Part shown: positions 2,022 through 28,937 of the stretch, piece after piece
How the letters are laid out: each line of letters starts with the position of its first letter
How positions within the stretch are numbered: the stretch's first letter is position 1
Assembly (NCBI GenBank): GCA_027452025.1
Contig: DAIDHI010000035.1
Span: forward strand, 104,262-168,261
DNA: 64,000 nucleotides
Direction: 5' to 3'
From: Elusimicrobiota bacterium
GTDB taxonomy: Bacteria; Elusimicrobiota; Elusimicrobia; UBA1565; UBA9628
Made by a program: the position numbers and the translations under genes
Notes under the pieces: generated by a model
Seen by the model: only the letters and a program-made list of their open reading frames with translations
Databases searched by the model: none
What the model was told of the DNA's origin: nothing

Positions 2022-2909
2022 TTGTCATCGCTCCCGGCGGCTCGGGCGCAAGCGAACTGGGACCCCACGACGAGCGGCCCTTTTTTCACCGGCACGGCGG
2101 AAACCCAGCCTCCCGGCTCGTTTTTTGCCGAGACCTACGTCTATGACTACTACCAATCGAACCCGGGGATCCATTCTGTGGTCATGCCGCTGAGATTCAA
2201 CGTGGGCGTCATCGACGGACTCGATTTCAACGCTTCGGTCCCATACGATCACACTCTGGAAAAGGGGCCGAACGGCAACTGGTATCAAGGCGGGGGCGTC
2301 GGCGATACCCAGCTCTGGGTTAAAAAGGAGCTGATCAAGGCTTCCGGCAATCTTCCGACGATCTCGACGGAGCTGATCCTCACCTTGCCATCCGGCAACT
2401 ACGCCCATTTGAAGCCCGATCTCTACGACGCGGACCAAACCGGGCTCGGCACGACGGACGTGGGCGTTTCCGTGTTGGCGCGAAAGCGCCTCGAGCCGTT
2501 CGAGTTTTACGGCCAGTTGACCTACACGACGGGCTCGCAGACGACCGTGGCTCCGGGCTACAGCACTCAAAACGGGACCCTCTTTCCCCAGGGCGGGCTC
2601 ATCACCCCGGGAGACACGATCTTTTACTCCGGGGCCTTCGAGCACATACTCAACGAAAAATGGAACGCCGGCTACTTGATGGAGCTCTACGGCGGCGCTT
2701 CGACGGGCCATAACCTCTTCGTGGGCCCGACCGGCAGGGCGGGCTGGAGTTTCCTTTGGGCGGCGCCGGAGCTGGAGATCGACTTTCCGCGCAACGTCTC
2801 CTGGGGCGCCGGAGTGGCGCTGCCGGTCTACCAGGAGAATTATCTGCGGACCATCACGCCCATGTTCACGGTCACCTACACGTATTCCGGTCCGGAAGGC
2901 CACCGATAG
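2022..2909 (+). CDS. Predicted outer-membrane transporter-like protein (MetA-pathway/porin-like)
   Basis: Beta-barrel-like sequence FAETYVYDYY...SVPYDHTLEKG...GVGDTQLWVKKEL; start uncertain (TTG at 2022, or upstream). Confidence 0.5.
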   Translation: MSSLPAARAQANWDPTTSGPFFTGTAETQPPGSFFAETYVYDYYQSNPGIHSVVMPLRFNVGVIDGLDFNASVPYDHTLEKGPNGNWYQGGGVGDTQLWVKKELIKASGNLPTISTELILTLPSGNYAHLKPDLYDADQTGLGTTDVGVSVLARKRLEPFEFYGQLTYTTGSQTTVAPGYSTQNGTLFPQGGLITPGDTIFYSGAFEHILNEKWNAGYLMELYGGASTGHNLFVGPTGRAGWSFLWAAPELEIDFPRNVSWGAGVALPVYQENYLRTITPMFTVTYTYSGPEGHR

Positions 2910-4878
2910 GAGCGCCGCCGGACGCTCCCAGCACCCAGGACGCCCGCGGCTCGAGCGCGGCCAGAAGCGCCAGGCCGATGCCGGAAAGCCCGCCCATCAA
3001 GCCGGGCACGAAGGGCCGCTCGTAGAGGCCCTGGAAGCGAAACGCTCCCTTTGCCCGGTAGAAGGCGGCCAGGTCCCGACCGGCCTGCCGCGCTTCCCGC
3101 TTGCGGCCCAGGCGCGCCAGGACGGCGATGCGCCCGGCCTCGCCGCAGCACAGGTGATGCCGCCGCAACGGCGGCAAGGGCCTAGCCGAGGCGCCTTCGA
3201 TCTCGGCCTCGGCCAGGGCCAGGCCGACGTCGCCGCAGCACCAGCCGCCGGGCTTGGCGCGTTCGCGGGCGACGGAAAGCAGCGCGCGCGCCTCGCGCTC
3301 GCGTCCCAGCCGCCAAAGCGCGACGGCCGTCCCCGCAGGCCCGTGGCCGAAGCCCGCGCCCTCGGGGATCTTTCCCGCAAAGCTTGCGCAAAGAGCGGCC
3401 GCCTCGCGCCGGCGGCCGCGCGCCAGAAGCCACAGGCAGGCGCCCGCTTGGCCGTTGAGGACGTCCGCATCGCCCAGGCGCGGCGCGGGCACGAAGCCCG
3501 GCACGTCGTCTAAGCGGCAGGCGCGGCGAGCCAAGCGCGAGAACTCCGAACGTCCGCTCTGGAGCGAGAGCTCCTCGAGGAACACGGCCACGCCCGCGGC
3601 GCCCGAGTAGAGCGACGGGTCGCCGGGGCGGTAGGCCATCGTGCGGCCGGGGCTGCGCAGCCGCGCGACGTCGAGCCAGACCGGCCCTCGCGGCGTCTCG
3701 ACGGCCAGCTCCCCAAGCGCCTCGCCGATGGCGACGGCCCAAGACAACAGGGAGCCTCCGCGCGGCCTGAGCCGCGCCGACGCAAGCGCCAAGGCGCGCT
3801 CGCAGACGGCGGCGTCGAGCGCCGCGCCGCGCGGCGCGGCCGCCGGAGCGTAGGAAACGGGAATGTCCCGCCGTCGCAGGGCGCGGCGCTCGGCCGGCGC
3901 AAAGCCGAAGCGGTCCAGAGCGCCCTCCTGGGCCCTCTCGTCCTTCAGCAAATCCGGCGCCGTGCTCCAGAAGAGCCAGTCGGCGTAGTCCCGAGTGGAC
4001 CGCGCAAGCGTCCTCGCTTTCAAGCCCGGCGGCACGGGCGGGCGCCGCGACCTCAGCCTCCGAGCGGCGCGCGAAAAGCCCCTCAGCACGGCCTTCGCGT
4101 CGAACGGCGCAGGGCGAGGCCCTTTCGGGAGGCGGTAGACGAGGCGTCCGGCGCGAAAGGCCGGGCGCGTGATCGACGGCGGCCGCAGCGCGCCGAAAAG
4201 TCCGGAGTCGACCTCGCTGAGCGCCTCCTCGCCGGCGAAGCGCCACACGGGAAGAAGGCCGGTGGCCAGAGGCGCCCAGCGCCTCTCGCCGCCGTAGCCG
4301 AAGAGCCCCTCGAGGTCTGCCGGCACGGGACGACCGCCCTTGGAGAGCCAGTTCTCGCGGTGCAGATCCGTGGCGCCGGCCAGGGAGAGCAACGCCAGCA
4401 GGGCTCCCATGTCCTCGAGCCAGCGCTTGGTGGGCTTCGCCGGCGCCGGCGCCAAAGCCTCGTGCCAGCTCCAGCTCTTGCGGCCGAGGACCAGCGGGAC
4501 CGGGAAATCCCACCCGGCCCAGGAGAGCAGCCGCGCGTAAGCGGCGTCGTGGGAGGCTGCGCGCGGCTTGTAGATCAGCCTCTTGCCCGAAGAGAAGACA
4601 AGCTCCATCACGGTGCGGCCTTTCTCGTGAGGATCGGAAAGCCCGGCGCGCAAGCGGCGCAGCCGTCCCAGCTTGCCGAAGAGCGTCTCCAGGTCCGTCC
4701 TGTCGGCGGCCAGCCGCTTCAAGCATTCGGCCCTCGCGCGGCCGGCGTCTTCTTCAATCGTCTTTTGCCAGCGCCGCAGGACGGGATAGCTGGCGGCGTC
4801 GAAAGACGCGCCGTCATAGGCGCGCGCGCGCGCCTCGATCTCGCGCAGGCGTTTCTCTATATGAGCGTCTTGCCGCAC
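2872..4878 (-). CDS. Compact class II lanthipeptide synthetase (LanM-like: DUF4135 dehydratase + LanC-like cyclase)
   Basis: Kinase-like dehydratase motifs LIYKPR, TDLHRENWL, PVPADLEGLF, ARSTRDYADWLFWSTAP, RRDIPVSY; cyclase motifs GFGHGPAG, GGWCCGDVG, HHLCCGEAG, GGLSGIGLALL. Confidence 0.85.
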   Translation of the reverse strand: MRQDAHIEKRLREIEARARAYDGASFDAASYPVLRRWQKTIEEDAGRARAECLKRLAADRTDLETLFGKLGRLRRLRAGLSDPHEKGRTVMELVFSSGKRLIYKPRAASHDAAYARLLSWAGWDFPVPLVLGRKSWSWHEALAPAPAKPTKRWLEDMGALLALLSLAGATDLHRENWLSKGGRPVPADLEGLFGYGGERRWAPLATGLLPVWRFAGEEALSEVDSGLFGALRPPSITRPAFRAGRLVYRLPKGPRPAPFDAKAVLRGFSRAARRLRSRRPPVPPGLKARTLARSTRDYADWLFWSTAPDLLKDERAQEGALDRFGFAPAERRALRRRDIPVSYAPAAAPRGAALDAAVCERALALASARLRPRGGSLLSWAVAIGEALGELAVETPRGPVWLDVARLRSPGRTMAYRPGDPSLYSGAAGVAVFLEELSLQSGRSEFSRLARRACRLDDVPGFVPAPRLGDADVLNGQAGACLWLLARGRRREAAALCASFAGKIPEGAGFGHGPAGTAVALWRLGREREARALLSVARERAKPGGWCCGDVGLALAEAEIEGASARPLPPLRRHHLCCGEAGRIAVLARLGRKREARQAGRDLAAFYRAKGAFRFQGLYERPFVPGLMGGLSGIGLALLAALEPRASWVLGASGGAPIGGLPDRNTCR

Positions 4879-5747
4879 CGCACGACCTCGTTGATCTCAT
4901 CGACGCAGCCGCGCCAGCGCCTGTCGACGAAGCGCGTCATCGCCTCGTATTCGGCCGGGACCTTGAAGGTCGCGCCGTCCGTCTCGCGCGCCAGCGGCCC
5001 GTCGAGATGCCGGCGGATCGATTCGGCCACCAACGCCGCGGCGATCCCAAGGCCCCGCAGATCCTCCCGGACCCACGTATAGGTGTAGCGCAAAAGCCGC
5101 GGCAGCGGCCGATGGTTGACCTGCCAGGCGACCACTTCCCCTTTATAGCGCAGGCCGAGGCTGTTGCCGGGCTCAAGCCACGGCTCGCCGTGGAACGGGT
5201 AGAGATTGCACGGCAGCTTCCCGGCTCGGTAGCCGTCCTCGATCGCGGCGCGCTCACTCGACCGCAACTCGGACCAGGGGAAGAGCTCGAATGCGGCGGG
5301 CACGCGCAGACGGCGCAGCCACGGCGCCTTCAAGACCTTGCCGGAACCCACGAAGCGGCACATGAGGGCGACGCGGGAAAACCCGTCCCATCCCTCCTTC
5401 TTGAGCAAGGCCTCGGCGGCGTCGCGCATGGGGCGCCCGCGCTCGAGTGTCGCCTCCACGCGCCGGCGCCCCTCGGCGGCCAGGACTCGCGCCGCTTCCT
5501 CGAGAAGGCGCGCGGCCAAGCCGCGGCGCCGCAGATCGCGACGCGTGAGAATCGACAAGAGTTCGCAAGGCTCGGCGCGGCGCGCGAGCAGCAGGCCGGC
5601 GGGAGCCTCCGCCGCGTCCCAGGCGGCGAGCGCGAGGAACGGGCGCTCCCGCCCGCCGGCCGAAAGCAGAGCCGGAATCAGGGCCGGAAAAGTCATCCCC
5701 TGGAAGGCATAGCCTTCCAGGGGATCGGAGAGCGCGGCGACGCGCAT
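4857..5747 (-). CDS. Tandem GNAT-domain acyltransferase (predicted RiPP acyl maturase)
   Basis: ATG at 5747 (MRVAALSDPLEGYAF...) 11 nt after the precursor stop; two GNAT-like blocks: LTRRDLRRRGLAARLLEEAARVL and VREDLRGLGIAAALVAESIRRH. The listed 428-aa ORF is over-extended. Confidence 0.75.
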   Translation of the reverse strand: MRVAALSDPLEGYAFQGMTFPALIPALLSAGGRERPFLALAAWDAAEAPAGLLLARRAEPCELLSILTRRDLRRRGLAARLLEEAARVLAAEGRRRVEATLERGRPMRDAAEALLKKEGWDGFSRVALMCRFVGSGKVLKAPWLRRLRVPAAFELFPWSELRSSERAAIEDGYRAGKLPCNLYPFHGEPWLEPGNSLGLRYKGEVVAWQVNHRPLPRLLRYTYTWVREDLRGLGIAAALVAESIRRHLDGPLARETDGATFKVPAEYEAMTRFVDRRWRGCVDEINEVVRCGKTLI

Positions 5748-5758
5748 GCGCGCGGGCG

Positions 5759-6391
5759 CTACTTGGACGCGGAGACGGCCATCGTGATGAAGCTGGAGAA
5801 CATCGTGCCCACGCAGACGGCGGCGGCCGCTCCGCCGACGTAGTTGGCGCCGGCTGCCTTGGCCACGCCGCCGCTGACGGTGACGATCGTGCCCTCGGTG
5901 GCCAGAGCGCTGCCGCAACCGCCGGCGCTCGGGTCGCCTTTGCCGCCGGCCACCATCTCCAGGTCGGCGTCGGAGAGCTCTCCGGACTTGGGCGGCACGT
6001 AAGGCAGGACGAAGCTCATCTGCTTGACCGAGTCCTCGTGCGCGACGATCTTGAGGCTCTTGGGCACGTTGGCCCCCGTGGCTTCCTTGATGGCCGCGGC
6101 CGGCTCCTTGAGGAGCTTCGCCTTGAACTTCGGGTCGGCCCAAGCCTTGCGGAAGACCTTGGCGACGTTGGGATCGAGCTTGTCGAGGAACGCGCCGTCG
6201 CCCTGGGGCGGCAGGACGGCATGGATCGTGGAGGGGCCGTTCTCGAAAACGCTCACCTCTACGCCCGCCGGCAGGTCCACGCCGATGGACTTGAGCGCGG
6301 CGGCCGGGTCCTTCTTGGCCAAGGCGCGGAACTTCTCATCGTGGATGCCCTTGTCGGCGAGCTGCTGGATCTGCTGGAGATTATCGAACAT
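5759..6391 (-). CDS. RiPP precursor with two tandem NHLP leader domains and a 60-aa core
   Basis: Two NHLP-like units (FRALAKKDPAAALKSIGVDLPAGVEVSVFEN...HAVLPP and FKAKLLKEPAAAIKEATGANVPKSLKIVAHED...FVLPYVPP) then LSDADLEMVAGG cleavage motif; core KGDPSAGGCGSALATEGTIVTVSGGVAKAAGANYVGGAAAAVCVGTMFSSFITMAVSASK. Confidence 0.88.
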   Translation of the reverse strand: MFDNLQQIQQLADKGIHDEKFRALAKKDPAAALKSIGVDLPAGVEVSVFENGPSTIHAVLPPQGDGAFLDKLDPNVAKVFRKAWADPKFKAKLLKEPAAAIKEATGANVPKSLKIVAHEDSVKQMSFVLPYVPPKSGELSDADLEMVAGGKGDPSAGGCGSALATEGTIVTVSGGVAKAAGANYVGGAAAAVCVGTMFSSFITMAVSASK

Positions 6392-6452
6392 TTCGGCTCC
6401 TTTTACTCGATCTTAAAAAGAACGTCTTATTTTAGCTAACTAACTCGGACCG

Positions 6453-8000
6453 TCAAGGCCCGGCTTTCGCCGCGCCGTAGTCGTTCTCGATATCGCCCAG
6501 AGCCAGGCGGTAGGCCGTCTCGGCCCGGAAGAGGTCGGCCCGGGCCGTGGCTTGATTGACCCGCGCCTGGGTCGTCTGGTACTCGACTTGCAGGAGGCGG
6601 AAGGAGTCCGACAACCCGAGCTGCAGGCGCTTCTGCTCCCCGGCCAACTGCCGCTGCGAGAGGTCCACGGCCTGATCGGCTTCGGCCAGGCGCGTGAAGC
6701 CGAAGCGCACGGCGCGATCGGCGGCGCGCACGTCCTGGCGCACGACGTTCTCGGCGGCGATGACCTGGAGGCGTCTGTTTTCCAAGGCGGCCAAAGCCGA
6801 GCGGTAGCGCCCGCGGTCGGCGCGCAAGAGCAGCGGGAAATTCGTCTTGAAGCCGAAGGACCACTGCTTGTCGGCGAAATCAAGCGCGCGGTTGAGGGAG
6901 TTCCAGCGCGCCGAGTCCAGGTTCTGCTGATAGCTGCCCACGCCGCCGAAGCTGCCGGTGGCGTCGAGCTCCGGCAGAGCGGCGCGCTTGGCCGCGTCGG
7001 CCTGCGCCTGGGCCTGCTCTTCCGAGGCGCGCGCGGCGAGCAGATCGGGCCGCTGCGACAGCGCCTGCTCCTCGGCCTTGGGAAGCGCCGCGAGCGCCCC
7101 CGAGGGCAGGGCTTCGGTGGTGGTGCGCACGTCGTAGCCCTCCGCGCGGAAGCGCCGGGCGACGTCCTCGCCGAAGGCGGTGAAGATCAGCTGGTCGACG
7201 GCGTCGCGGCGCGCCTGCTCGGCCCGGAGATAGGTGGTGCGGCGCTCGGCCGCGCCGGCCGCCGCGGTGAGCACGTCGAAAGGGGCGATCAACTGGCGCC
7301 GCTCGAGCTGCCGGTTGCGGGCCAGCAGAGAATCGCCGGCGTCCATCGAAAGCCGCGCCGCATCGGCCTGCGCTTCGGCCTGCTGAAGCTGCCAGTAGGC
7401 GTTTTCGGCGTCGGCCACGGCCTGCTCCAGGGCCCGGCGGGCCGTCGCGTCGGCGGCTTGCAGCGCGGCGAAGGCTTGGCGGATGGCGGCCAGCGCCGCG
7501 GCCGGACCGGCGTTGCGCAGCAGCGGCTGGCTGGCGCTGAAGAGAGCGGAGGCCGTGTGCAGCGCGGGAAATGGGATTTGCTGCTGGTCGGTGTCCCCGG
7601 CCGTAAACGAGATCTGCCCTCCGGTGAGCAGGTTCTGAGCCAGCGACGCGGAATAATCGAGCTGGCGCGTATCGTTGGGCGGCAGCGACAGGTCATTGGT
7701 GAAGGTCCGCGTGCGGTTGTAGTTTTGGCTCGCCGAAGCCTGGAAGGTCGGGTCAAAGAAGCCCTTGGCCGTCATGACCTGGCCCCGGGCGTCGGCCTGG
7801 CCCTGGCGCGACTGCAAATACCGCAGCTGCAGCGAGGCGGCCGCGGCCACGACCTGCGCCAGGCTGAGCGCGGTCTGCGGCGCGGACTCCGCCAGACTCG
7901 CCGTCGACACCATCACCTCTCCGGCATCCAGGGATGAGGCCGGGGCGGCCGGCGCGGCGGCGGCCCAAACGGCCAAGGCGGCGACGAGGGCCGCGCTCAT
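6453..8000 (-). CDS. TolC-family outer-membrane efflux protein
   Basis: Signal-like N-terminus MSAALVAALAVWAAA; TolC-like repeats (LSLAQVVAAAASLQLRYLQSR..., LSQRPDLLAARASEEQAQAQADAAKRAALPELDATGSFG...). Start trimmed from the 1177-aa ORF. Confidence 0.85.
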   Translation of the reverse strand: MSAALVAALAVWAAAAPAAPASSLDAGEVMVSTASLAESAPQTALSLAQVVAAAASLQLRYLQSRQGQADARGQVMTAKGFFDPTFQASASQNYNRTRTFTNDLSLPPNDTRQLDYSASLAQNLLTGGQISFTAGDTDQQQIPFPALHTASALFSASQPLLRNAGPAAALAAIRQAFAALQAADATARRALEQAVADAENAYWQLQQAEAQADAARLSMDAGDSLLARNRQLERRQLIAPFDVLTAAAGAAERRTTYLRAEQARRDAVDQLIFTAFGEDVARRFRAEGYDVRTTTEALPSGALAALPKAEEQALSQRPDLLAARASEEQAQAQADAAKRAALPELDATGSFGGVGSYQQNLDSARWNSLNRALDFADKQWSFGFKTNFPLLLRADRGRYRSALAALENRRLQVIAAENVVRQDVRAADRAVRFGFTRLAEADQAVDLSQRQLAGEQKRLQLGLSDSFRLLQVEYQTTQARVNQATARADLFRAETAYRLALGDIENDYGAAKAGP

Positions 8001-10252
8001 GCCGTCTGCCGACAGGCAAGCTCGAAAAAGAGGCCTTTTCGGGCCATGAGCTCGTCGTAGGTGCCGGCCTCTTTGAGCGCGCCGCGGTCGATGACCAGGA
8101 TTCGGTCGGCGTCGCGGATCGTGCTCAGGCGATGCGCGATGACCAGGCGGGTGACCTTGAGCTTGGAAAGGCTCTCCGTCACGATGGCCTGGGTGCGGTT
8201 GTCCAACGCGCTGGTGGCCTCGTCGAAGAGAATGATGCGCGGCTTGCGCGCGAGAGCCCGCGCGATGATGAGCCTCTGGCGCTGGCCGCCCGAAAGCGTC
8301 GAGGCGCCTTCGCCGATGATCGTCTGCATCCCCATGGGCATGCCGCGGATGTCGTCGGCCAAGCCAGCGGCCTCCGCGGCCGCCCAAGCCTCCTCCATGG
8401 AGAGCGGCAGGCCGCCCACGATGTTGGTGTAGACGTCTCCGGCGATGAGGCGGGCGTTCTGCAAAACGGCTCCAATCTGCCGGCGGATGGCCGTGACGTC
8501 GTGCTTGGCCAGATCCTTTCCATCGTAGTAGACGGCGCCGAGCTCGGGCTTTTCGAAACCCAGGAGCAGGCGCATGAGGCTGGACTTGCCCGAACCCGAG
8601 GGACCAACGACGGCCACGAACTGCCCCGGCTCGACATGGAAAGAGACGTCGTCGAGGACCCTCGGCCCATCGGCCCGGTAGCGGAAGGAAGCGTGCCTGA
8701 CGTCGATACGCCCTTGCAGGAGCCCCGGATGCGCCTTGGAACCGTCGTCTTCGGGGACGGCCTCGAGGATGGGCCTGGCGCGCGACCAGAGCGGGCCCAC
8801 GGCCGCCAGCTGCAAAGCGGTGGCGCTCAGCGACGTGCCCGCCGACAAAAACGTCGAGAACGCGGCCGAGAAGGCGATGAAATCGCCGACGGAGATCGGC
8901 GCGGCGCCCGGGTTCGAGGCTCCTGGATGCAGATTGGCGTCGACGACGTAATAAAGGACCATGGTCGAAAGGACGGGGATGAAGCCGTTGAACACGGAGG
9001 CGTAGGCGCCCAGGCGCTCGGCGGAGAACGCCGCCTGGCAGGACTCCGCGTAGCGGCGGCTCCAGACGGCGAAGGCCCGGGGCTCGGCCGCGCTCACGCG
9101 CAGCTTGGAGATGCCGTTGAGCAGCTGCAGGACCAGGCCGCCGAGCTTGCCCTCGAGCTCGGTAAGCGCGTAGCGCTTGCGCAAGGACAGCCACATCACG
9201 GCGATCTGGAACGCGGCCACGGCGGCCAGGACCAGGCAGGCCACCAGCGCCAACTGCGAATGGTAATGGAACAGCAGGAATAAATTGAAGCCGCCCTGGA
9301 GGCTGGCCACCGTCGAGGCGAGCACCGAGCCGCTGATGAGCTCCCGCATCGAGTTGACGGCGTTGGCGCGCATGGCGAGGTCGCCCACGGTGTATTCGCG
9401 AAAGAAGGGCGCCGGCAGCCGCAAGAGCCGGTCCCACACGGCGGCCTGCACGCAGCCGCCCCACTTGCCTTCCACGCGCAGCAGCGCGATCGCCTGAGTG
9501 AACGAGAATGCGGCGCTGGCCGCGGCCGCGGCGATGAGCCCCAACGTGAAGTGCGCCAGGCCCGCCCGGTCCGCGCTCGGCACGACCACGTCGAAGATCT
9601 TGCCGGTGGCCATCGGGATGGCCATGCCGAGCAGGGCTCCGAGCACGCCTAGGGCGGCCGCCATGGCGACGTCGCGCGCCATGTCTCGCCCGAAAAACGC
9701 CAGCAGGCCCCGCAGCCCCACCTTTCCGTCCCCGAAAGGGCGATAGAGCGCGTAGGCGAAAGGGTGAAGAGCGGCCGCCGCCGCCCCATCGAGCGGCATG
9801 CGCGCGCCGGCCGCGGGCTCCAGAAGCTCGTAGCGCCCCGGCCCCAGCGGCAGGACGGCGACCGGCTCCAAGGCGTTGTCCTTGGCGTCCGGCCGGCCTC
9901 GAAAGGCGAGCAAGGCGCCGCAATCCGTCTTCCACCAGTCGCCGCGCAGCGCCACGCGGCGATGGCGCACGCGCGAGGCGGCGCAAACCGCCTCGACGCG
10001 GTGCCGCAAAGGAAGGCTTTCCGGGATGGCGGGCGGCGGCGATAACGCGATGCCCTCGGCCCTGGCCACGGCGGCGCAGGCGCGCGAGAGCGCGTCGTCG
10101 AATCCTTCCCAGCCCCGCGGATCGAAGCTCTCGGGCGTCTCGACGACGGCCGCCAAGTCCTGCAGCGCGCCGGCATACATCCGCTCGTCGAGCAGGGCGC
10201 GGCGTCCGGCGCGCTCCTCCTCGCGCGGGGCGTCGTCGAGGGCCTCAGGCAT
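7997..10252 (-). CDS. NHLP-type bacteriocin export ABC transporter, permease/ATPase subunit
   Basis: Walker A GPSGSGKSS, signature LSGGQRQRL, Walker B IILFDEATSALD, TM domain; long non-peptidase N-terminus; adjacent to C39 transporter. Confidence 0.85.
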   Translation of the reverse strand: MPEALDDAPREEERAGRRALLDERMYAGALQDLAAVVETPESFDPRGWEGFDDALSRACAAVARAEGIALSPPPAIPESLPLRHRVEAVCAASRVRHRRVALRGDWWKTDCGALLAFRGRPDAKDNALEPVAVLPLGPGRYELLEPAAGARMPLDGAAAAALHPFAYALYRPFGDGKVGLRGLLAFFGRDMARDVAMAAALGVLGALLGMAIPMATGKIFDVVVPSADRAGLAHFTLGLIAAAAASAAFSFTQAIALLRVEGKWGGCVQAAVWDRLLRLPAPFFREYTVGDLAMRANAVNSMRELISGSVLASTVASLQGGFNLFLLFHYHSQLALVACLVLAAVAAFQIAVMWLSLRKRYALTELEGKLGGLVLQLLNGISKLRVSAAEPRAFAVWSRRYAESCQAAFSAERLGAYASVFNGFIPVLSTMVLYYVVDANLHPGASNPGAAPISVGDFIAFSAAFSTFLSAGTSLSATALQLAAVGPLWSRARPILEAVPEDDGSKAHPGLLQGRIDVRHASFRYRADGPRVLDDVSFHVEPGQFVAVVGPSGSGKSSLMRLLLGFEKPELGAVYYDGKDLAKHDVTAIRRQIGAVLQNARLIAGDVYTNIVGGLPLSMEEAWAAAEAAGLADDIRGMPMGMQTIIGEGASTLSGGQRQRLIIARALARKPRIILFDEATSALDNRTQAIVTESLSKLKVTRLVIAHRLSTIRDADRILVIDRGALKEAGTYDELMARKGLFFELACRQTA

Positions 10253-12422
10253 TGGCCAACCTCGCGTAGAGCCCTTCGGCGTCGCGCATGAGCTCCTCGT
10301 GGCGCCCGCGCTGGACGACATTCCCCTCGTCCAGCACCAGGATCTCGTCGGCGTCGCGGATCGTGCTCAGCCGGTGCGCGATGATCAGGCAGGAGCAGCC
10401 GCGGCGGCGGATATTCTCGCCGATGAGGCGCTCGGTGACCGGATCGAGGGCGCTCGTCGCCTCATCGAGCACGAGCACCGAAGGGTTGGTCGCCAGCGCC
10501 CGCGCGATCTCCAGGCGCTGGCGCTGGCCGCCGCTGAGATTTCGGCCGCCTTCCTCGAGCATTCCGTCATAGGCGCCGGGCCGAGCCGTGACGTCGTCGT
10601 GGATGCAGGCGTCCACGCAGGCGCGCACGATCTCGACGTCGGGCGTGCTCGAGTCCCAGAGCGTGAGGTTGTCCTTGAACGGCCCCTCGAACATGACGAT
10701 GTCCTGGTCGACCATGGCCACCGACGAGGCAAGCGAGCGCCGCGGCACCAAGCGGCGCGGCGCGCCGTCGAGGAGTATCTCGCCTTCCCAGGGCTCGTAA
10801 AGTCCGGCCACCAGGCGCGAGATCGTGGACTTGCCGCAGCCGCTCGGCCCGACGAGAGCGACGACGGCACCGGGCGCGATGACCAAGTCGAGCTTGCTGA
10901 TGAGCGCCGGCTTGCGGCGCGAATAGCCGAAGGTCACGCCTCGCAGCTCGACGCGGCCGGAAAGCTTCTTGATCGGGCCCGCGGCCGCCGCCGGCGCGCA
11001 GGCCTGCGGGTCGAGACGGTGCGCCAGCACGTCGTCGAGCCGCCCCATGTCGGCCTCGGCCCCTTGGAGTTTTTCGAGCAGCTTCATGCAGCTCTTGACC
11101 GGCTCGAGGAACGCCGCCATCAGTCCCTGGAAGGCGACGAGCATGCCGAGCGTCATGTGGCCCTGGACCACGCGCAGCCCGCCCAGGCCCAGGAGCAGGG
11201 CGTCGGCCATGCCCTGCATGACCGCCGGGACCTGCACGAGGGCCGCCGCCGTCGACTGCAGCTCCTGCTGGCAGGCCGAGAGCTTGGCCTGGTAGCCGGA
11301 CCAGGTGGCGAAGAAGTCCGACTCGCTACCCGTGGCCTTGAGGCTTTCGATCGCCTGAAGCCCGCCCATCGACACGCCCATGAGCTTGCCTTCCTCGCGG
11401 CCCAGGCGCCGGCTGCCGTCGACGCGCGCCAGGCGCGCCTTCTGGCAGACCCAGGCGTTGACGACGACCACCAGGACGGCGACGAAGAACAGCGGCCGGT
11501 CAATGGCCAGCATCAGGGCGCCGTAGAAGACGATGAGCACCAAGTCGACGGCGGACGACGTCAGCTGGCCGGCCACCAAACTCGCCACGCGCCGGTTGAG
11601 CGCGACGCGGTTGGCCACGTCGCCCGCGTAGCGCTGCGTGTAGAATTCCACCGGCAGGCGCAGCAGATGCCAGAAGAACTGCCCGGCTCCGGCCACCGAG
11701 AGCTTGGCCTGCAGCCGGACGAGCGTCTTTTGCTGCAGCCACAGCAGCGAAGCCCGCACGACCGCGGCCGCGGCCATGGCCAGCAGAAGGGGCCTGAGCC
11801 AGTCCGTCATCCCGCGGACGAGATAGTCGTCGACGAAGACGCGCCCGAAGGTGGGGATCGCCAGGCCCGGCAGCACCAGGCCGAGCCCGGCCAGGCCGAC
11901 GAACCACAGCGCGCCCTCGGAGCCGCGCGCGCGCCGCCGCAGCGCCGGCCACAGGCTCGGCCGTCGCCCGTGCCTGCGAAACTGCGGGCCGGGAGAAAAA
12001 GAGAGGGCCACGCCGGTAAAGGCCGCGTCGAACTCGCTCCAGCTCACCGTCCGCGGCCCGCAGGCGGGATCGTTCAAGTACACGATGTCGCCGCGGAAGC
12101 CTTCGACGACGACGAAGTGGTTGAAGTTCCAGAAGACGATGACGGGCAGTTCCATGGCCCGCAGCTCGGCGGGCTCCCTGCGCCAGCCCTTCGCCTCCAA
12201 GCCGTACACGCGGGCGGCTTCCACGACGTTGCGGGCGTTGCTGCCGTCGCGCGAGACGTCGCACTGGCTCCTCAGCTCCTCGAGAGGCACCCAGCGGCCG
12301 TAATAGGCCAGGATCATGGCCAGGCAGGCGGCGCCGCACTCGGCGGCCTCCATCTGCAGGACGGTCGGGGTTTTTTTGCGCGCGTTTCGCGCGGGAGCCG
12401 CGGCGGGAGCGGACGCGCTCAC
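10245..12422 (-). CDS. NHLP-type bacteriocin export ABC transporter with N-terminal C39 peptidase
   Basis: C39 Cys QMEAAECGAACLAMIL, His WNFNHFVVVEGF, Asp LNDPACG; ABC GPSGCGKST, LSGGQRQRLE, VLVLDEATSALD; GTG start overlapping hlyD stop. Confidence 0.9.
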   Translation of the reverse strand: MSASAPAAAPARNARKKTPTVLQMEAAECGAACLAMILAYYGRWVPLEELRSQCDVSRDGSNARNVVEAARVYGLEAKGWRREPAELRAMELPVIVFWNFNHFVVVEGFRGDIVYLNDPACGPRTVSWSEFDAAFTGVALSFSPGPQFRRHGRRPSLWPALRRRARGSEGALWFVGLAGLGLVLPGLAIPTFGRVFVDDYLVRGMTDWLRPLLLAMAAAAVVRASLLWLQQKTLVRLQAKLSVAGAGQFFWHLLRLPVEFYTQRYAGDVANRVALNRRVASLVAGQLTSSAVDLVLIVFYGALMLAIDRPLFFVAVLVVVVNAWVCQKARLARVDGSRRLGREEGKLMGVSMGGLQAIESLKATGSESDFFATWSGYQAKLSACQQELQSTAAALVQVPAVMQGMADALLLGLGGLRVVQGHMTLGMLVAFQGLMAAFLEPVKSCMKLLEKLQGAEADMGRLDDVLAHRLDPQACAPAAAAGPIKKLSGRVELRGVTFGYSRRKPALISKLDLVIAPGAVVALVGPSGCGKSTISRLVAGLYEPWEGEILLDGAPRRLVPRRSLASSVAMVDQDIVMFEGPFKDNLTLWDSSTPDVEIVRACVDACIHDDVTARPGAYDGMLEEGGRNLSGGQRQRLEIARALATNPSVLVLDEATSALDPVTERLIGENIRRRGCSCLIIAHRLSTIRDADEILVLDEGNVVQRGRHEELMRDAEGLYARLANA

Positions 12423-13486
12423 AGGCCGAGGTAGGACTTGAGCGCCGGCAGCGCGAGCTCGATGGGCCGACGGCGGTCCACGATCACTCTCGCCTCTCCC
12501 ATCATCCCCGCGGCGACGGGGATCTCCGGCCCCTCGGAGGCCGACCACTTGAATCCGCTCGGGCTGTTCGGGTCGCGTTCGAGGGCGATCTTGACGAGGA
12601 AGGGCGGGCCGTCCTTGGTGAGCTGATCGTCGAGGGACTGGCTGCGGGTGAGCTCGTAGAGCATATTTGCGCGCACGGGCAGCTCGGAGCCGAACGCCAC
12701 CTTGCCCTTGATGAAGCCGTATTCCTGCTTCGGAAACGACGCCGGCGAGACCTGAGCGTCCATGCCCACCTTGGCTTGGTCGCCGACGTTGGGGATGAAC
12801 GCCAAGGCCATCAGAGGCTCGTCGTCGTCCATGATCGTGAGCACCGGCGCGCCCGTGCGGATCATCGTCGAAGGCGAGGTGACAACCTCGACGACGCGCC
12901 CGGCCTTGAGCGCCCGCACCTCCGTGGCGTGCTTCTGCTGCACCGTGCCGACGGCGAGCTGCGTCTGGACGGACTCCAGATCGGCCTTGGCCGTGTTGAC
13001 GGCGTCGGCCGCGGATGCCGCGTCGGCGGCGGGGATCAGGCCCATGGCCGCCGCCTCTTTCTTGGCCTTGGCCTGCTTTTCCAGGAAGGGGATCTTCTGC
13101 CTCAGGCCGGCGAGCCTGGTCTCCAGCTCTTGGCGCGAGCCGCGGCTCTTGACCGCCTGGGACTCCTCGAAGACGTGGGCCACGACCTCGCCCGGCTTGA
13201 CGTGATCGCCCTCCTTGACCAGGATGTCGCTGACGAAGCCATCCCCGGTGGAGTAGACCTCGTCGACGCCCTCCGGCGGCATCAGGATCATCTTGCCCGA
13301 GATCGTCGTAGGGATGCGCCCGAGGATGGACCACAGCAGCACGCCCGCGAGCACCGCGACGATGGCGAGCAAGGCGACCCAGGTCTTGGGCGTCGTCACC
13401 TGGACGAGGGTATCCAATTGCTCGGGCGTCGAAAGGCGCTCGAGGGCCGACTTGCGGAAGATCTGCGCGCCGGGCAACGGAGCCAT
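12419..13486 (-). CDS. HlyD-family periplasmic adaptor (NHLP bacteriocin secretion protein-like)
   Basis: Single N-terminal TM, lipoyl-like halves (DGFVSDILVKEGDHVKPGEVVAHV / ALKAGRVVEVVTSPSTMIRTGAPVLTI); ATG at 13486 chosen. Confidence 0.85.
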   Translation of the reverse strand: MAPLPGAQIFRKSALERLSTPEQLDTLVQVTTPKTWVALLAIVAVLAGVLLWSILGRIPTTISGKMILMPPEGVDEVYSTGDGFVSDILVKEGDHVKPGEVVAHVFEESQAVKSRGSRQELETRLAGLRQKIPFLEKQAKAKKEAAAMGLIPAADAASAADAVNTAKADLESVQTQLAVGTVQQKHATEVRALKAGRVVEVVTSPSTMIRTGAPVLTIMDDDEPLMALAFIPNVGDQAKVGMDAQVSPASFPKQEYGFIKGKVAFGSELPVRANMLYELTRSQSLDDQLTKDGPPFLVKIALERDPNSPSGFKWSASEGPEIPVAAGMMGEARVIVDRRRPIELALPALKSYLGL

Positions 13487-13542
13487 CGGACCTATTTTAG
13501 CAGCTTTGACGGCGGCGTGACGGGCTTTGGTAGAATCTCCCA

Positions 13543-14280
13543 ATGGGCCGCTTCGAGGGCCGGACGGCGATCGTCAGCGGCGGCGGCCGCGGCATCGGGC
13601 GCGCCGTCGCCTTGCAGCTGGCGCGGGAAGGCGCGCGAGTCGTCTTCAGCTTCGCCGGCGACGAGAAGGCCGCCGCCCTGACCGAAGCCGCCGCCGGCGG
13701 GGCCGCCGTGGCCGTGCGCGCCGACGCATCGTCGCCGCAAGCGGCCCGGCTCCTGGCCGACGCCGCGCGCCGGCGCTTCGGAGGCTTCGACCTGCTCGTC
13801 AACAACGCCGGCATCGTCCGCTCCTCGATGGTGGCCTTCATGGACGACGAGCAGTGGAGCCAGGTGCTGCGAGCCGACTTAGACGGCCTCTTTTATCTCA
13901 GCCGCTTGGCCGCGCAGACCTTCCTCAAGCAAGGCCGCGGCGCCATGGTCAACGTGGCGTCCTTGACGGCTTTCCACGGAGCCGTCGGCCAGGCCAACTA
14001 CGCCGCCGCCAAGGGCGGCATGGTGGCCTTCACGCGCACGCTCGCCCGGGAGCTGGCGCCCCGCGGCATCCGCGTCAACGCCGTGGCCCCGGGCGCCATC
14101 GAGACGGACATGCTCCGGGCCGTTGCGGCGCCGCGGCGCGAAGCCCTGATCAATGCCGCCCCCATGGGCCGGGCGGGCACGCCGGAGGAAGTGTCCTCCG
14201 TCGTCTGCTTCCTTTTGTCCGACGCCGCCTCCTTCGTCACCGGGCAGACCCTGATCGTCGACGGCGGAACCTCGGCGTGA
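13543..14280 (+). CDS. fabG: 3-oxoacyl-ACP reductase-like SDR
   Basis: SGGGRGIGRA, NNAGI, YAAAKGG, VTGQTLIVDGG motifs; first gene of KS/ACP operon. Confidence 0.85.
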   Translation: MGRFEGRTAIVSGGGRGIGRAVALQLAREGARVVFSFAGDEKAAALTEAAAGGAAVAVRADASSPQAARLLADAARRRFGGFDLLVNNAGIVRSSMVAFMDDEQWSQVLRADLDGLFYLSRLAAQTFLKQGRGAMVNVASLTAFHGAVGQANYAAAKGGMVAFTRTLARELAPRGIRVNAVAPGAIETDMLRAVAAPRREALINAAPMGRAGTPEEVSSVVCFLLSDAASFVTGQTLIVDGGTSA

Positions 14281-15257
14281 GGCGGGTCGTCGTCACCGGA
14301 ATCGGCATCGTCTCGCCCATCGGCCACGGCCGGGAAGCGTTCTGTTCGGCCCTGGCGCGGGGCCAAAGCGGCATCCGCGACATCACCCTCTTTGCGACCG
14401 ACGGCCTGCGCGCGCGACGCGCCGGCGAGATCTCGGATTTTCAGCCTGAGGCGTTCCTCGGACCCAAGGGCCTTCGGCTGCTCGACCGCGCCGCCAAGCT
14501 CGCGCTCTGCGCGGCCCACTTGGCGCTGGAAGACAGCGGCCTCCTTTATAAAGAAGACGCCGGCGCGGAAATCGGCGTTTGCCTGGGCTCGACGGCCGGA
14601 AGCGTGCAGTCCCGCGCCGCCTACTTCGCCACGCTGCACCGCGAGGGCGTGCGCGGGCTCAACCCCGCCCTCTTTCCCAACACCGTCGTCAACTCGCCCT
14701 CCGCGCAAGTGGCGATCCGTTTCGGCCTGAAGGGCTACAACGCCACGATCTCGTCGGGCGCGGCGTCCTCCTTGCACGCGCTGGACTACGCGGCTCGCTC
14801 CATCGCCACGGGCCGCGCGCCCGCGGCGCTCGCCGGCGGAGTCGAGGAGTTGGGCGAGTTCTTCTTCATGGCGTTCCACCAGGGCGGCTGCCTCGACGAC
14901 GGCCTCGTCCTCGGCGAAGGAGCGGCCGTGCTCGCGCTCGAGGAGGCCGGGGCGGCGCGCGCGCGCGGCGCGCGGATCCTGGCCGAATACGCCGGCGGCG
15001 GCTCGTCGCTCGCGCTGCCCGAGGCGGTCGCGCTCGCGCTCGAGGAGGCGGGAGCGGCGGGCGCGCCGCCCCCCAGGACCTTCTCGGCCGACGCCGTGCG
15101 ACCGTTCATCGGCGAGTGCTATTCGGCGGGAGGCGCGTTCCAGGCCTGCGCGGCGATCCAAGCCTTGGAGCGCGAGCCGCGCGCGCTGGTGTCGTCGGCC
15201 GGCCCCACGGGCGAGGCGGCGGCGTGCGTATTTTCGAGATGGGAGAAAAACACATGA
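14277..15257 (+). CDS. Ketosynthase homolog lacking active-site Cys (KS-beta / chain-length-factor-like)
   Basis: KS fold start VVVTGIGIVSPIGHG; TACxSS position reads SSGAASS; no HGTGT; GH motif reads VRPFIGECYSAGGA. Confidence 0.75.
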   Translation: MRRVVVTGIGIVSPIGHGREAFCSALARGQSGIRDITLFATDGLRARRAGEISDFQPEAFLGPKGLRLLDRAAKLALCAAHLALEDSGLLYKEDAGAEIGVCLGSTAGSVQSRAAYFATLHREGVRGLNPALFPNTVVNSPSAQVAIRFGLKGYNATISSGAASSLHALDYAARSIATGRAPAALAGGVEELGEFFFMAFHQGGCLDDGLVLGEGAAVLALEEAGAARARGARILAEYAGGGSSLALPEAVALALEEAGAAGAPPPRTFSADAVRPFIGECYSAGGAFQACAAIQALEREPRALVSSAGPTGEAAACVFSRWEKNT

Positions 15258-15514
15258 AGCAAGATCAAGCGGCCGTCGAGGCCGCCGTCCGGACGATGGT
15301 CGCCACGATCCTCGAGAAGCCCGAAGACAAGATCGGCCCCCAGGCGGACTTCGTAGACCAACTGGGGGCGGACTCCATGGCCGCGCTCGAGCTCATGGCG
15401 GAGATCGAGAAGCGCTACGGCATCGTCGTGCCCCCGGAGAACCTGCCGCGGTTCAAGTCCGTGGCGTCGGTCAGCCGCCTCGTCATGGAACTCCTGGAAG
15501 CCGAAGTTGCCTGA
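15254..15514 (+). CDS. Acyl carrier protein
   Basis: DFVDQLGADSMAALELMAEIEKRYGIVVP phosphopantetheine site; ATGA overlap with KS-beta-like gene. Confidence 0.9.
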   Translation: MKQDQAAVEAAVRTMVATILEKPEDKIGPQADFVDQLGADSMAALELMAEIEKRYGIVVPPENLPRFKSVASVSRLVMELLEAEVA

Positions 15515-16703
15515 GGCACGCGTCGTCGTCACCGGCATCGGCGTCGTTTCCGCCGTCGGGATAGGCAAGGAAGCCTTCTGGCGCGGATTGCTCGCCGGGA
15601 AAAGCGGCGTCTCGCCGATCACGGCCTTCGACCCCGCGGCCTGCCCCGTCCCGATCGCGGCGGAAGCGCAGGATTTCCGGCCCGAAGAGCACCTCGAGCC
15701 CGAGCAGGTCCGGGCGTTCGGACGCTCCTCGCAGCTGGCGACGGCCGCCGCCAAGCTCGCCTTGACCGACGGCGGAGAGCCCTCCGGACGCTGCGGGGTC
15801 TACATCGGCACGACGATGGGAGAGGCGCGCATGCAAGACGAGGCCTGCGGCGCCTGGGTCTCGGGCGGCCGCATGGCGATCTCCGGAGACCTGGCGCGCC
15901 GCGGCGCCGACAACGTCCTGGCCGTCAACGCGGCGCGCGCCCTGCGCCTCGACGCCGAGTGCCTCTGCCTGCCCACGGCCTGCGCGGCCGGAAACTACGC
16001 CCTGGGCCACGCCTTGGACCAGATCCGGCGCGGTCGCGTGCGCTGGGCCCTGGCCGGAGGCGCCGACGCGTTTTCCCGCGTAGCCCAGGCGGGATTCTCG
16101 CGCATGCTGGCCCTGACGCCGGATCGCTGCCGGCCCTTCGACCGCGACCGCAAGGGGATCGTCGTCGGCGAGGGCGCGGCCGTGATGGTCCTGGAGCCGC
16201 TCGACGCCGCGCGCCTGCGCGGCGCGCGCGTCTACGCCGAGCTCAAGGGCTACGGCCAGAGCTGCGACGCCAGCCACATGACGATCCCCCATCCCGACGG
16301 CGCCGAGGCCGTCATGCGCCGCGCGCTCGCTCACGCGGGCGCCTCCGCCGCCGACGTCGACTACGTCTGCGCCCACGGCACCGGGACGCGGCAAAACGAC
16401 CTCAGCGAGTGCGAGGCCGTCGCGCGCGTCTTCGGTGCTCGCGCCCGCGCGGTGCCCGTCAGCTCCATTAAGTCCATGCTCGGCCACGCCATGGGCGCGG
16501 CCAGCGCGCTTGAGGCCGCGGCCTGCGCCCTGGCCGTGGCCGAAGGGACGATTCCCCCGACCATCAACTACGAGACGCCGGACCCCGGCTGCCCGATCGA
16601 CTGCGTCCCAAACGCCGCCCGCCGCGTCCGGGTCCGCCTGGCGCTCAACAACGCCTTCGCCTTCGGCGGCAACAACTGCGCGACGGTCTTTTCCAAGGTT
16701 TAA
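15507..16703 (+). CDS. Beta-ketoacyl-ACP synthase (FabF/KAS II-like), catalytically intact
   Basis: TACAAG, HGTGTRQND, KSMLGHAMGAA; TTG start overlapping ACP. Confidence 0.88.
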   Translation: MPEARVVVTGIGVVSAVGIGKEAFWRGLLAGKSGVSPITAFDPAACPVPIAAEAQDFRPEEHLEPEQVRAFGRSSQLATAAAKLALTDGGEPSGRCGVYIGTTMGEARMQDEACGAWVSGGRMAISGDLARRGADNVLAVNAARALRLDAECLCLPTACAAGNYALGHALDQIRRGRVRWALAGGADAFSRVAQAGFSRMLALTPDRCRPFDRDRKGIVVGEGAAVMVLEPLDAARLRGARVYAELKGYGQSCDASHMTIPHPDGAEAVMRRALAHAGASAADVDYVCAHGTGTRQNDLSECEAVARVFGARARAVPVSSIKSMLGHAMGAASALEAAACALAVAEGTIPPTINYETPDPGCPIDCVPNAARRVRVRLALNNAFAFGGNNCATVFSKV

Positions 16704-16739: not shown

Positions 16740-16813
16740 GCCCCCGTAGCTCAGTTGGTCAGAGCAGCCCGCTCATAACGGGTTGGTCGCTGGTTCAAGT
16801 CCAGCCGGGGGCA
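16740..16813 (+). tRNA. tRNA with CAT anticodon, probably tRNA-Ile2 (lysidine-type), alternatively tRNA-Met
   Basis: Cloverleaf GCCCCCG TA GCTCAGTTGGTCAGAGC A GCCCG CTCATAA CGGGT TGGTC GCTGG TTCAAGT CCAGC CGGGGGC A; no encoded CCA. Confidence 0.9.
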
Positions 16814-24738: not shown

Positions 24739-25833
24739 CTAGCGAAACGCCGGCTGGACGCGCCAATGCCGCTGCGCGGCCGCCCGAAGCAGGGCCGGGT
24801 CCGAGCCTATCACGAGGCGCAATCCATCGCCATACGACAACAAGTCGAGGTCGTCGGCAGACACCCCGAGAGCCAGCGTCGGCCCTCGGCCGGCGCCGGA
24901 GACCAGCGCGTCCACCTTCCCCTCGCGGATCGGGACGGGCTCGACGATCTTGCCGGTCATCGTCTCCCGGCTGACGTCGCGATCCTTGGAAAGTCCCTCG
25001 GAGATCCCCGCCAGCTCCACGCCTTGCAGGCGCAGCTGCTGCGCCGCGGCCTGGAGGACCGGCTGCGGATCAGGGTCTTCGAGCCAGACGTCGAAGCCCG
25101 AACGCTCGAGAAGCCGCGTCAAATCGAGCAGCTCCGGGGTCGCCAGAAACCCATGGCGGATCGCCACCGGATTAGGATCCTCGGAGGACGCGCCCAGCTT
25201 CTCGATCGACGGCGGCCGAGCGGCCTCCGTCGCCAGCACGCCCTTGGCGTAATCGAGGGCCTCCTTCCTCGGGAAGCCTTTGAGGAGGCGGGCGAGATAG
25301 ATGCGGCAATCCTTGCGGCTGACCTCGAAGCACATGCGCTGGTAGCTCTCGATGAAATATTTCACGAACTGATGGTAGGTCGGCTGTTCGTCCCAGACGT
25401 CGCGCGGCAGGCCCGAGAATTGCTCATAGGCCGCCCGTATGCGCTGGCGGCCGTAAAGGATCGGGACGACGTCCCAAAACGAGTCGTCGAACTTGAAGGC
25501 CGCCTTGCGCACCAAGTCCTGGAAGACGAGCTCGGACGGATCGCCTTCGATCAAGCCGTCGTCGACGGGCAGCACGGCGATGGGCCGCCGCGCGGCGTCA
25601 AAGTCGACGGAGCCGCGGCCGTAGACCTGGACGGCGACGTCGAGCGTCTCGGCGATCGCCGGATTCCAGCGCCCGGGCTGCAAGCGGTCGAGCGGACGCG
25701 CGGCAGCCGCGCTCGAGACCCGGACGAGGGCGGCTTTGCGGCGCAGCCGCGGGTTGCGGGGACGGTAGTAGGCCGAGGCCGGGGAGGCGGCCGCCAGCAC
25801 GCATGCGAGGAAAAAAACAACGCGAGAGCGCAT
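24739..25833 (-). CDS. Secreted HAD-superfamily-like protein with degenerate catalytic motifs
   Basis: Signal peptide; AVLPVDDGLIEGD at motif I, TPELLDLTRLLERSGFDVWLEDPDPQPV at motif II, GKIVEPVPIREGKVDAL, LALGVSADDLDLL at motif IV. Confidence 0.6.
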   Translation of the reverse strand: MRSRVVFFLACVLAAASPASAYYRPRNPRLRRKAALVRVSSAAAARPLDRLQPGRWNPAIAETLDVAVQVYGRGSVDFDAARRPIAVLPVDDGLIEGDPSELVFQDLVRKAAFKFDDSFWDVVPILYGRQRIRAAYEQFSGLPRDVWDEQPTYHQFVKYFIESYQRMCFEVSRKDCRIYLARLLKGFPRKEALDYAKGVLATEAARPPSIEKLGASSEDPNPVAIRHGFLATPELLDLTRLLERSGFDVWLEDPDPQPVLQAAAQQLRLQGVELAGISEGLSKDRDVSRETMTGKIVEPVPIREGKVDALVSGAGRGPTLALGVSADDLDLLSYGDGLRLVIGSDPALLRAAAQRHWRVQPAFR

Positions 25834-25842
25834 GTCAAAAAA

Positions 25843-25870
25843 TTGTCAACGATGGAGTGTATGTTATAAA
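25843..25870 (+). promoter_or_regulatory. Sigma70-like promoter for the DHS-like operon
   Basis: TTGTCA - 16 nt - TATAAA. Confidence 0.55.
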
Positions 25871-25912
25871 ATAAACGATCTCCGTCGGAAAACGACGGAA
25901 GGAGAGAGAGCC

Positions 25913-26977: not shown

Positions 26978-26983
26978 GACGCG

Positions 26984-27841: not shown

Positions 27842-27853
27842 TATAATCCACCC

Positions 27854-28894: not shown

Positions 28895-28937
28895 GCGTCG
28901 ACTCCCGTTGCGCCCGCGAGCCCGCTCCGTCGGGAGG

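Follow-up and report, generated by a model that had tools for sequence, protein, structure and literature searches.

The stretch of DNA analysed here (the window; 64,000 nucleotides) contains a gene cluster whose probable product is an exported, ring-closed, fatty-tailed peptide of the selidamide kind. We consider it reasonably likely that the cluster represents selidamide-type biosynthesis with a dedicated supply of acyl-ACP. The RiPP half is already known, since it corresponds to the phaeornamide gene set; the unusual part is the adjoining FabG/CLF/ACP/KS cassette. Profile searches of the window recovered all 11 genes of the two operons in the order and orientation originally predicted, and the divergent arrangement, including a distance of about 56 bp between the two start codons, was borne out almost to the base. 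The features are as follows.

2872..4878, minus strand: LanM class II lanthionine synthetase, compact, 668 aa (DUF4135 and LANC_like)
4857..5747, minus strand: tandem GNAT N-acyltransferase, 296 aa, with a 22-bp overlap with the LanM start (GNAT Pfam matches)
5759..6391, minus strand: RiPP precursor, 210 aa, with a ELSDADLEMVAGG cleavage site and a 60-aa core starting with Lys (TIGR03793)
5759..5941, minus strand, stop codon included: core peptide KGDPSAGGCGSALATEGTIVTVSGGVAKAAGANYVGGAAAAVCVGTMFSSFITMAVSASK (sequence)
6426..6456, minus strand: promoter-like site TTGACG-16-TAAAAT upstream of the precursor (consensus match only)
6453..8000, minus strand: TolC-type outer-membrane efflux protein (OEP PF02321)
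7997..10252, minus strand: NHLP export ABC transporter without peptidase, NHLM ABC2 (TIGR03797, 875.6 bits, cut-off 709)
10245..12416, minus strand: NHLP export ABC transporter with C39 double-glycine peptidase, NHLM ABC1 (TIGR03796, 1045 bits, cut-off 853; Peptidase_C39)
12419..13486, minus strand: HlyD-type membrane fusion protein (HlyD_3)
13487..13542, no strand: divergent intergenic region HlyD-FabG, 56 bp from HlyD ATG to FabG ATG
13543..14280, plus strand: FabG-type ketoreductase, SDR (PF13561; NF004198, 247 bits)
14277..15257, plus strand: chain-length-factor-like KS (CLF), 326 aa (catalytic residues lost; best PDB match 9s5h_C)
15260..15514, plus strand: acyl carrier protein, 84 aa, phosphopantetheine site GADSM (PF00550; sequence)
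15507..16703, plus strand: ketosynthase with intact Cys-His-His (TACAAG, HGTGT, GHAMG; ketoacyl-synthase profile, FabF-like)

The minus-strand operon thus reads HlyD, C39-ABC, NHLM-ABC2, TolC, double-NHLP precursor, tandem GNAT and LanM, and diverges from a plus-strand cassette of FabG, Cys-less KS, ACP and KS. Genes within both operons are closely packed, with overlaps of 4-22 bp or gaps of no more than 11 bp; only the gap ahead of the precursor is larger, at 61 bp. Real coding is supported throughout by a third-position GC of 0.86-0.92 combined with low GC at the second position in every gene, the short CLF included. The gene content and motifs are evident from the sequence itself. An element GCTAAAATARG is common to the promoter-like site of the precursor and a site before HlyD (13491-13501), the motif having been picked after both sites were seen. 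Over the spacing scanned, the 56-bp gap showed no sigma-70-like site. Ahead of FabG, the sequence TTGACG-19-TAGAAT was read by eye only.

The RiPP operon has gene-level features of the selidamides. The precursor carries two NHLP leader domains (TIGR03793, 102 bits, in two stretches) and a GG cleavage site, both NHLM exporters, including that with the C39 peptidase, score above the NHLP equivalog cut-offs (TIGR03796, TIGR03797), and a GNAT-family acyltransferase gene lies 11 bp from the precursor gene. The original prediction regarded the combination of LanM, GNAT and NHLP precursor as undescribed. This is not the case: the gene set of the selidamide phaeornamide (pha) comprises an NHLP precursor, a class II LanM, a GNAT N-acyltransferase and the NHLP exporters T1-T3 (PMC9505594), and nostolysamide is a further acylated peptide made with LanM and GNAT (PMC13060382). 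Likeness to phaeornamide extends to the three exporter genes and to double-glycine cleavage by a C39 transporter, whereas the pha peptide arginase and hydroxylase are both absent here and Lys1 takes the place of the pha Arg/Orn. The nostolysamide system of Nostoc punctiforme (npu) likewise couples LanM with GNAT and has a core Lys1 after GG, acylated in npu and predicted to be so here, but differs in its Nif11 leader, short Cys-rich core and full-size LanM, and no acyl-chain genes have been reported for it. Goadvionins, microvionin and other lipolanthines, and lipoavitides are also lanthionine-type RiPPs to which a GNAT attaches a chain; goadvionins and lipolanthines have been described as polyketide/fatty-acid hybrids. 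These employ a class III synthetase, avionin chemistry and N-terminal acylation, whereas the chain genes in the window are of the type II KS/CLF kind. The synthetase is not of their class: the class III LanKC model gave a score of 36.9 bits (cut-off 575), and the dehydratase is the class II DUF4135.

LanM possesses both domains of a class II enzyme, with dehydratase and cyclase motifs, and retains counterparts of CylM D252, H254, K274, D347, H349, N352, D364, R506 and T512 together with a Cys-Cys-Cys zinc site. It lacks the N-terminal capping region (approximately 115-130 residues, the CylM capping helices), several further segments are short, and it scores 206.9 bits against TIGR03897, below the NCBIfam LanM curated cut-off of 304. 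Dehydration may consequently be weak or lost. A degenerate or partial LanM, confined to phosphorylation, cyclisation or leader binding, would yield an acylated product without lanthionine bridges, that is, a linear lipopeptide. Consistent with this, the core fragment of an NHLP/GNAT locus elsewhere (L036) contains no Cys, and the contig of that locus carries no LanM. We nevertheless regard a linear product as improbable, given that every CylM catalytic position tested is kept, that the core offers two Cys and 12 Ser/Thr, and that the LanM reading frame cannot be extended upstream, so that the compact size does not stem from a mis-called start. The structure model of LanM (pLDDT 37) was left out of the analysis. 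No LanM relatives were found in plasmids.

An AF2 model (pLDDT 87.7) confirmed the tandem nature of the GNAT, with the tandem GNATs 2wpw, 7q3a and MshD as its best PDB matches; on the strength of this predicted fold we count it with the points evident from the sequence. Among 341 genomes of the phylum only two gave full-length tandem-GNAT matches, both within NHLP/LanM loci, and both sequences belonged to the query profile. A full-length relative lies near the NHLP precursor in L036, and is the nearest by identity with such a neighbour. Named genomes were scanned with a three-member GNAT alignment, a five-member alignment being too diverse. This returned 16 loci, 15 cyanobacterial and one from Rhodothermaceae. 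Most of these are not RiPP loci and have the GNAT embedded in a long ORF, which carries the annotation TIGR03032 in a plasmid relative; KS, ACP or FabG genes adjoined the GNAT in none of the 16. GNAT relatives were absent from viral contigs and only distant in plasmids, one adjoining a Nif11 precursor in Mesorhizobium, and a comparison with PHROGs gave no match. By sequence, the acyl donor of the GNAT may be either an ACP or a CoA thioester.

The acyl acceptor is predicted to be Lys1 of the core. The core contains K1, K28 and K60, C9 and C43, and no Arg, and Lys1 directly follows GG (..VAGG|KG..). The junction in L036 is likewise ..VAGG|KG.., with no arginase seen nearby. Conversely, in L030, a phaeornamide-like locus of a related species in the same family as the window organism, the junctions are ..VAGG|RC.. 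and ..VAGG|GRC.., beside an arginase. Nostolysamide bears its acyl group on Lys1 (PMC13060382). Taken together these comparisons point to Lys1, by a rule drawn from three loci.

The original prediction of a Cys-less KS in the cassette was correct and understated. All three catalytic residues of the CLF are lost: Ala replaces the nucleophilic Cys, Glu replaces the second His, and the region of the first His is deleted. The protein is 326 aa long against the usual ~410. The partner KS is intact and groups in a tree with 9s5h_B and the KSs of other cassettes, apart from FabF. In the PDB, KS and CLF best match the two partner chains of 9s5h, a two-chain 3-oxoacyl-ACP synthase for which a literature search found no relevant paper. 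The pairing of an active KS with one lacking catalytic residues is shared with 9s5h and with the ishigamide KS-CLF (6kxd), but the CLF here is ~85 aa shorter, no dehydratase gene is present and a RiPP operon adjoins. Highly reducing KS-CLF systems such as those for aryl polyenes have a dedicated dehydratase; the cassette contains no FabA/FabZ-like gene, while a related cassette, L025, has one. Genes for a thioesterase, enoyl reductase or malonyltransferase were also absent from the cassette.

A canonical FabF above the curated cut-off is missing from the genome and from almost all of the relatives checked, which might suggest that the cassette is the housekeeping fatty-acid synthase, located here by chance. 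This is highly improbable. A second, different KS with a nearby KS III-like gene is found elsewhere in the genome (contigs C26 and C62), in the same type of position as in relatives. Most of the relatives checked, which do not have the cassette, carry a matching pair. Moreover, the KS partner in the cassette is catalytically dead. We conclude that the cassette is not the housekeeping synthase.

The two halves occur together in one genome only. No second locus with both was found among the 16 GNAT loci of named genomes, the three of 295 phylum genomes with NHLM exporters, or the two of 341 with a full-length tandem GNAT. KS/CLF cassettes (G121, G150, G026, G023) were separate from the NHLP locus (G004), and the cassette relatives L025 and L027 lack RiPP genes. 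L030 contains a LanM, a GNAT, two NHLP precursors, a peptide-arginase match, a candidate hydroxylase of the cupin type and the exporters found here as well (HlyD 48% identical to that of the window), and no KS/CLF cassette within the 18 kb read. For the anticipated co-occurrence the outcome was mixed: both halves adjoin in the window, and this did not extend to a second locus. Since cassettes and RiPP operons are found apart elsewhere, we infer their coupling from adjacency in one genome and from the precedents of acylated RiPPs.

These separate occurrences also fit a reading in which the operons are mere neighbours, an ordinary selidamide drawing acyl-CoA or acyl-ACP from primary metabolism while the cassette makes a separate lipid or polyketide. 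The characterised selidamides take their acyl groups from primary metabolism (PMC9505594) and would not need the cassette, and NpuN accepts many acyl-CoAs in vitro. Yet both sets are rare in the phylum and are separated by 56 bp, no other tailoring or transport genes belong to the cassette, and the genes beyond the following tRNA-Met are conserved chromosomal genes, kept in relatives without the cassette. In an empty-site comparison with relatives the right edge was conserved and the left was not. We thus judge independent neighbours unlikely, though a more serious contender than either a linear product or a housekeeping synthase.

Dedicated supply is favoured by the head-to-head operons, the translationally coupled genes on both sides and the end of the cassette block 36 bp ahead of tRNA-Met. 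The 3-hydroxydecanoyl group of phaeornamide (PMC9505594) is the product type of a KS and FabG set without dehydratase, which we also count in its favour. In the proposed pathway, the doubled NHLP leader would serve as the binding handle of the precursor, and LanM would dehydrate some Ser/Thr of the 60-residue core, with up to two (methyl)lanthionine rings at Cys9 and Cys43. KS/CLF, FabG and the cassette ACP would generate a beta-hydroxyacyl chain on ACP, or a saturated one were housekeeping FabZ and enoyl reductase to join. The tandem GNAT would transfer this chain from ACP to the epsilon-amine of Lys1, and the C39 ABC transporter would cleave after GG, the acylated peptide being exported with ABC2, HlyD and TolC. 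Leader binding, ring formation, export and the Lys1 acceptor are drawn from characterised relatives; feeding of the GNAT by the cassette is suggested by adjacency and precedent. Of the predicted convergence on one acylated, cyclised and exported peptide, an acylated, lanthionine-type, NHLP-led exported RiPP is supported as the probable product and the dedicated acyl-ACP cassette is plausible, its coupling being the part that depends on a single genome.

The more specific proposal is that the cluster's own KS-CLF, FabG and ACP make a (3-hydroxy)acyl-ACP of fixed length, which the tandem GNAT moves straight to Lys1 of a class II, NHLP-led peptide, so that the cluster would itself encode the identity of the chain instead of borrowing it from primary metabolism. 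On this we are evenly divided. Selidamides so far borrow host fatty acyl groups, and their tail is thus not programmable. If the proposal is true, a cluster equipped to build its own chain would reveal how the tail of a lanthipeptide is fixed in nature, and the GNAT, KS/CLF, ACP, small LanM and Lys1 acceptor would form a compact parts kit for producing lipopeptides through co-expression. A link between type II ketosynthase chemistry and class II lanthipeptides would also be established; the precedents found in the literature are class III.

The eleven genes at 2872-16703 were found in exactly the set and order of the original prediction, followed on the plus-strand side by a tRNA:

minus strand: HlyD, C39-ABC (NHLM ABC1), NHLM ABC2, TolC, precursor, GNAT, LanM
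plus strand: FabG, CLF-like KS, ACP, KS
16740-16813: tRNA-Met, immediately following KS

Neighbouring genes overlap or almost touch, except before the precursor (61 bp) and in the divergent gap (56 bp), and coding was supported in all genes by codon-position GC. Profile searches placed both NHLM ABC1 and NHLM ABC2 above the NHLP equivalog cut-offs. The 64-kb window has two copies of GCTAAAATARG, one at 6426-6436 (before the precursor) and one at 13491-13501 (before HlyD), possibly a shared -10 element, the motif having been chosen once both sites were seen.

The combination of LanM, GNAT and NHLP precursor is already known from phaeornamide (PMC9505594) and nostolysamide-related clusters (PMC13060382). 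Phaeornamide genes encode an NHLP precursor (PhaA), arginase (PhaR), LanM (PhaM), hydroxylase (PhaI), GNAT (PhaN) and transporters (PhaT1-3), and its 3-hydroxydecanoyl group is supplied by primary metabolism (PMC9505594). Nostolysamides are made by a LanM and a GNAT and are acylated on core Lys1; related GNAT clusters use NHLP or Nif11 leaders (PMC13060382).

The window LanM possesses DUF4135 and LanC-like domains by profile search. Alignment to CylM (PMC4550811) revealed counterparts of the phosphorylation residues K274, D347, H349, N352 and D364 and the elimination residues D252, H254, R506 and T512; the zinc ligands are Cys, Cys, Cys, with CylM His912 replaced by Cys. Because the capping helices, which make up approximately the N-terminal 115-130 residues in CylM-type enzymes, are missing, we can only infer that the enzyme would be fully active. 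The GNAT structure model (pLDDT 87.7) matches tandem GNATs, for example 2wpw, 7q3a and MshD. In cyanobacteria, proteins related to this GNAT frequently form the C-terminal end of a long ORF outside RiPP loci (most of L037-L051; L034:7411-9522); in an annotated plasmid case that ORF is TIGR03032.

The precursor comprises two NHLP domains, ending in ELSDADLEMVAGG, and a core of 60 residues. The core has Lys1, Lys28 and Lys60, Cys9 and Cys43, and 12 Ser/Thr, but lacks Arg. The leader/core junction reads AGG/KGDPS, and arginase is absent. At L036, a cyanobacterial MAG locus with a full-length GNAT about 34% identical to that of the window, the junction reads AGG/KGSNN and no arginase was recognised nearby. 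This GNAT stands alone beside a truncated precursor with a Lys-Gly core (9239-13736), preceded by an uncharacterised 244-aa protein; no LanM was seen. In the same-family locus L030 (G004:C14:8000-26000), the junctions read AGG/RCAGS and AGG/GRCGA and an arginase-like gene adjoins (170 bits, below the peptide-arginase cut-off of 350). Cores vary in step with the enzymes across the three loci. Together with nostolysamide Lys1, this pattern points to Lys1 as the predicted acylation site of the window core (n=3 loci).

L030 also contains LanM, GNAT, two NHLP precursors, a Cupin_8 protein and exporters as in the window; no KS cassette was present in the 18 kb read. It is phaeornamide-like, its Cupin_8 protein being a hydroxylase candidate. 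A further locus (G170:C12:375000-394000), which has exporters, one LanM and six NHLP precursor genes in tandem but no GNAT, is a lanthipeptide locus with one enzyme and many substrates.

The window KS is intact. Its top PDB match is 9s5h_B (386 bits), with lower scores for the ishigamide KS 6kxd (331) and FabFs (<=287); the CLF best matches 9s5h_C, the partner chain, and has Ala, a deletion and Glu at the active-site positions. In a tree, the KS falls together with 9s5h_B, with ketosynthases from elsewhere in the phylum and with a fused paralogue on contig C18 (100/99), and FabF lies apart. KSs fused into 630-650 aa ORFs that have an ACP gene adjacent or close by (L032, G000:C18; L029, G017:C30) are its nearest paralogues. 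A related set in genome G121 comprises FabG, CLF, FabA-like, KS and ACP, and no RiPP genes lie near the KS/CLF sets of G121 and G150. Since the window cassette has FabG without a dehydratase, by itself it would yield 3-hydroxyacyl products.

The window genome also encodes another KS and a KS III-like gene on contig C26, which have counterparts in most of the relatives checked; it has three PPTase-family matches as well. Canonical FabF (above the NCBIfam cut-off) occurs in only 1/18 relatives, and in most of them a divergent KS lies some 2 kb away from a KS III-like gene (compare G000 contigs C26 and C62); fatty-acid synthesis in this lineage therefore looks unusual.

Within the phylum, LanM and above-cut-off NHLM ABC2 were each found in 3/295 genomes, the NHLP leader in 4/341 and the full-length tandem GNAT in 2/341 (the window genome and G004, both represented in the query profile). 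Among these genomes, the cassette lies beside an NHLP operon only in that of the window. The accessory block ends 36 bp before tRNA-Met. Beyond it, segment 16858-20308 has conserved order in several same-family genomes; genes there are conserved in six relatives, none of which has a cassette of the window type at the corresponding site. Both operons are therefore lineage-specific. The right edge is conserved and the left is not, so acquisition in a single step is unsupported. Further along (25832-30299), genes that by eye look deoxyhypusine-synthase-like, agmatinase-like and glutamine-synthetase-like lie close together, which suggests polyamine metabolism.

The RiPP half is very probably a selidamide-type pathway and works like one. 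In the best single reading, which we hold to be somewhat probable, its acyl chain comes from the cassette; this draws on adjacency and precedent, not recurrence. The LanM/GNAT/NHLP half is of a known kind, and what is unusual is the cassette beside it.
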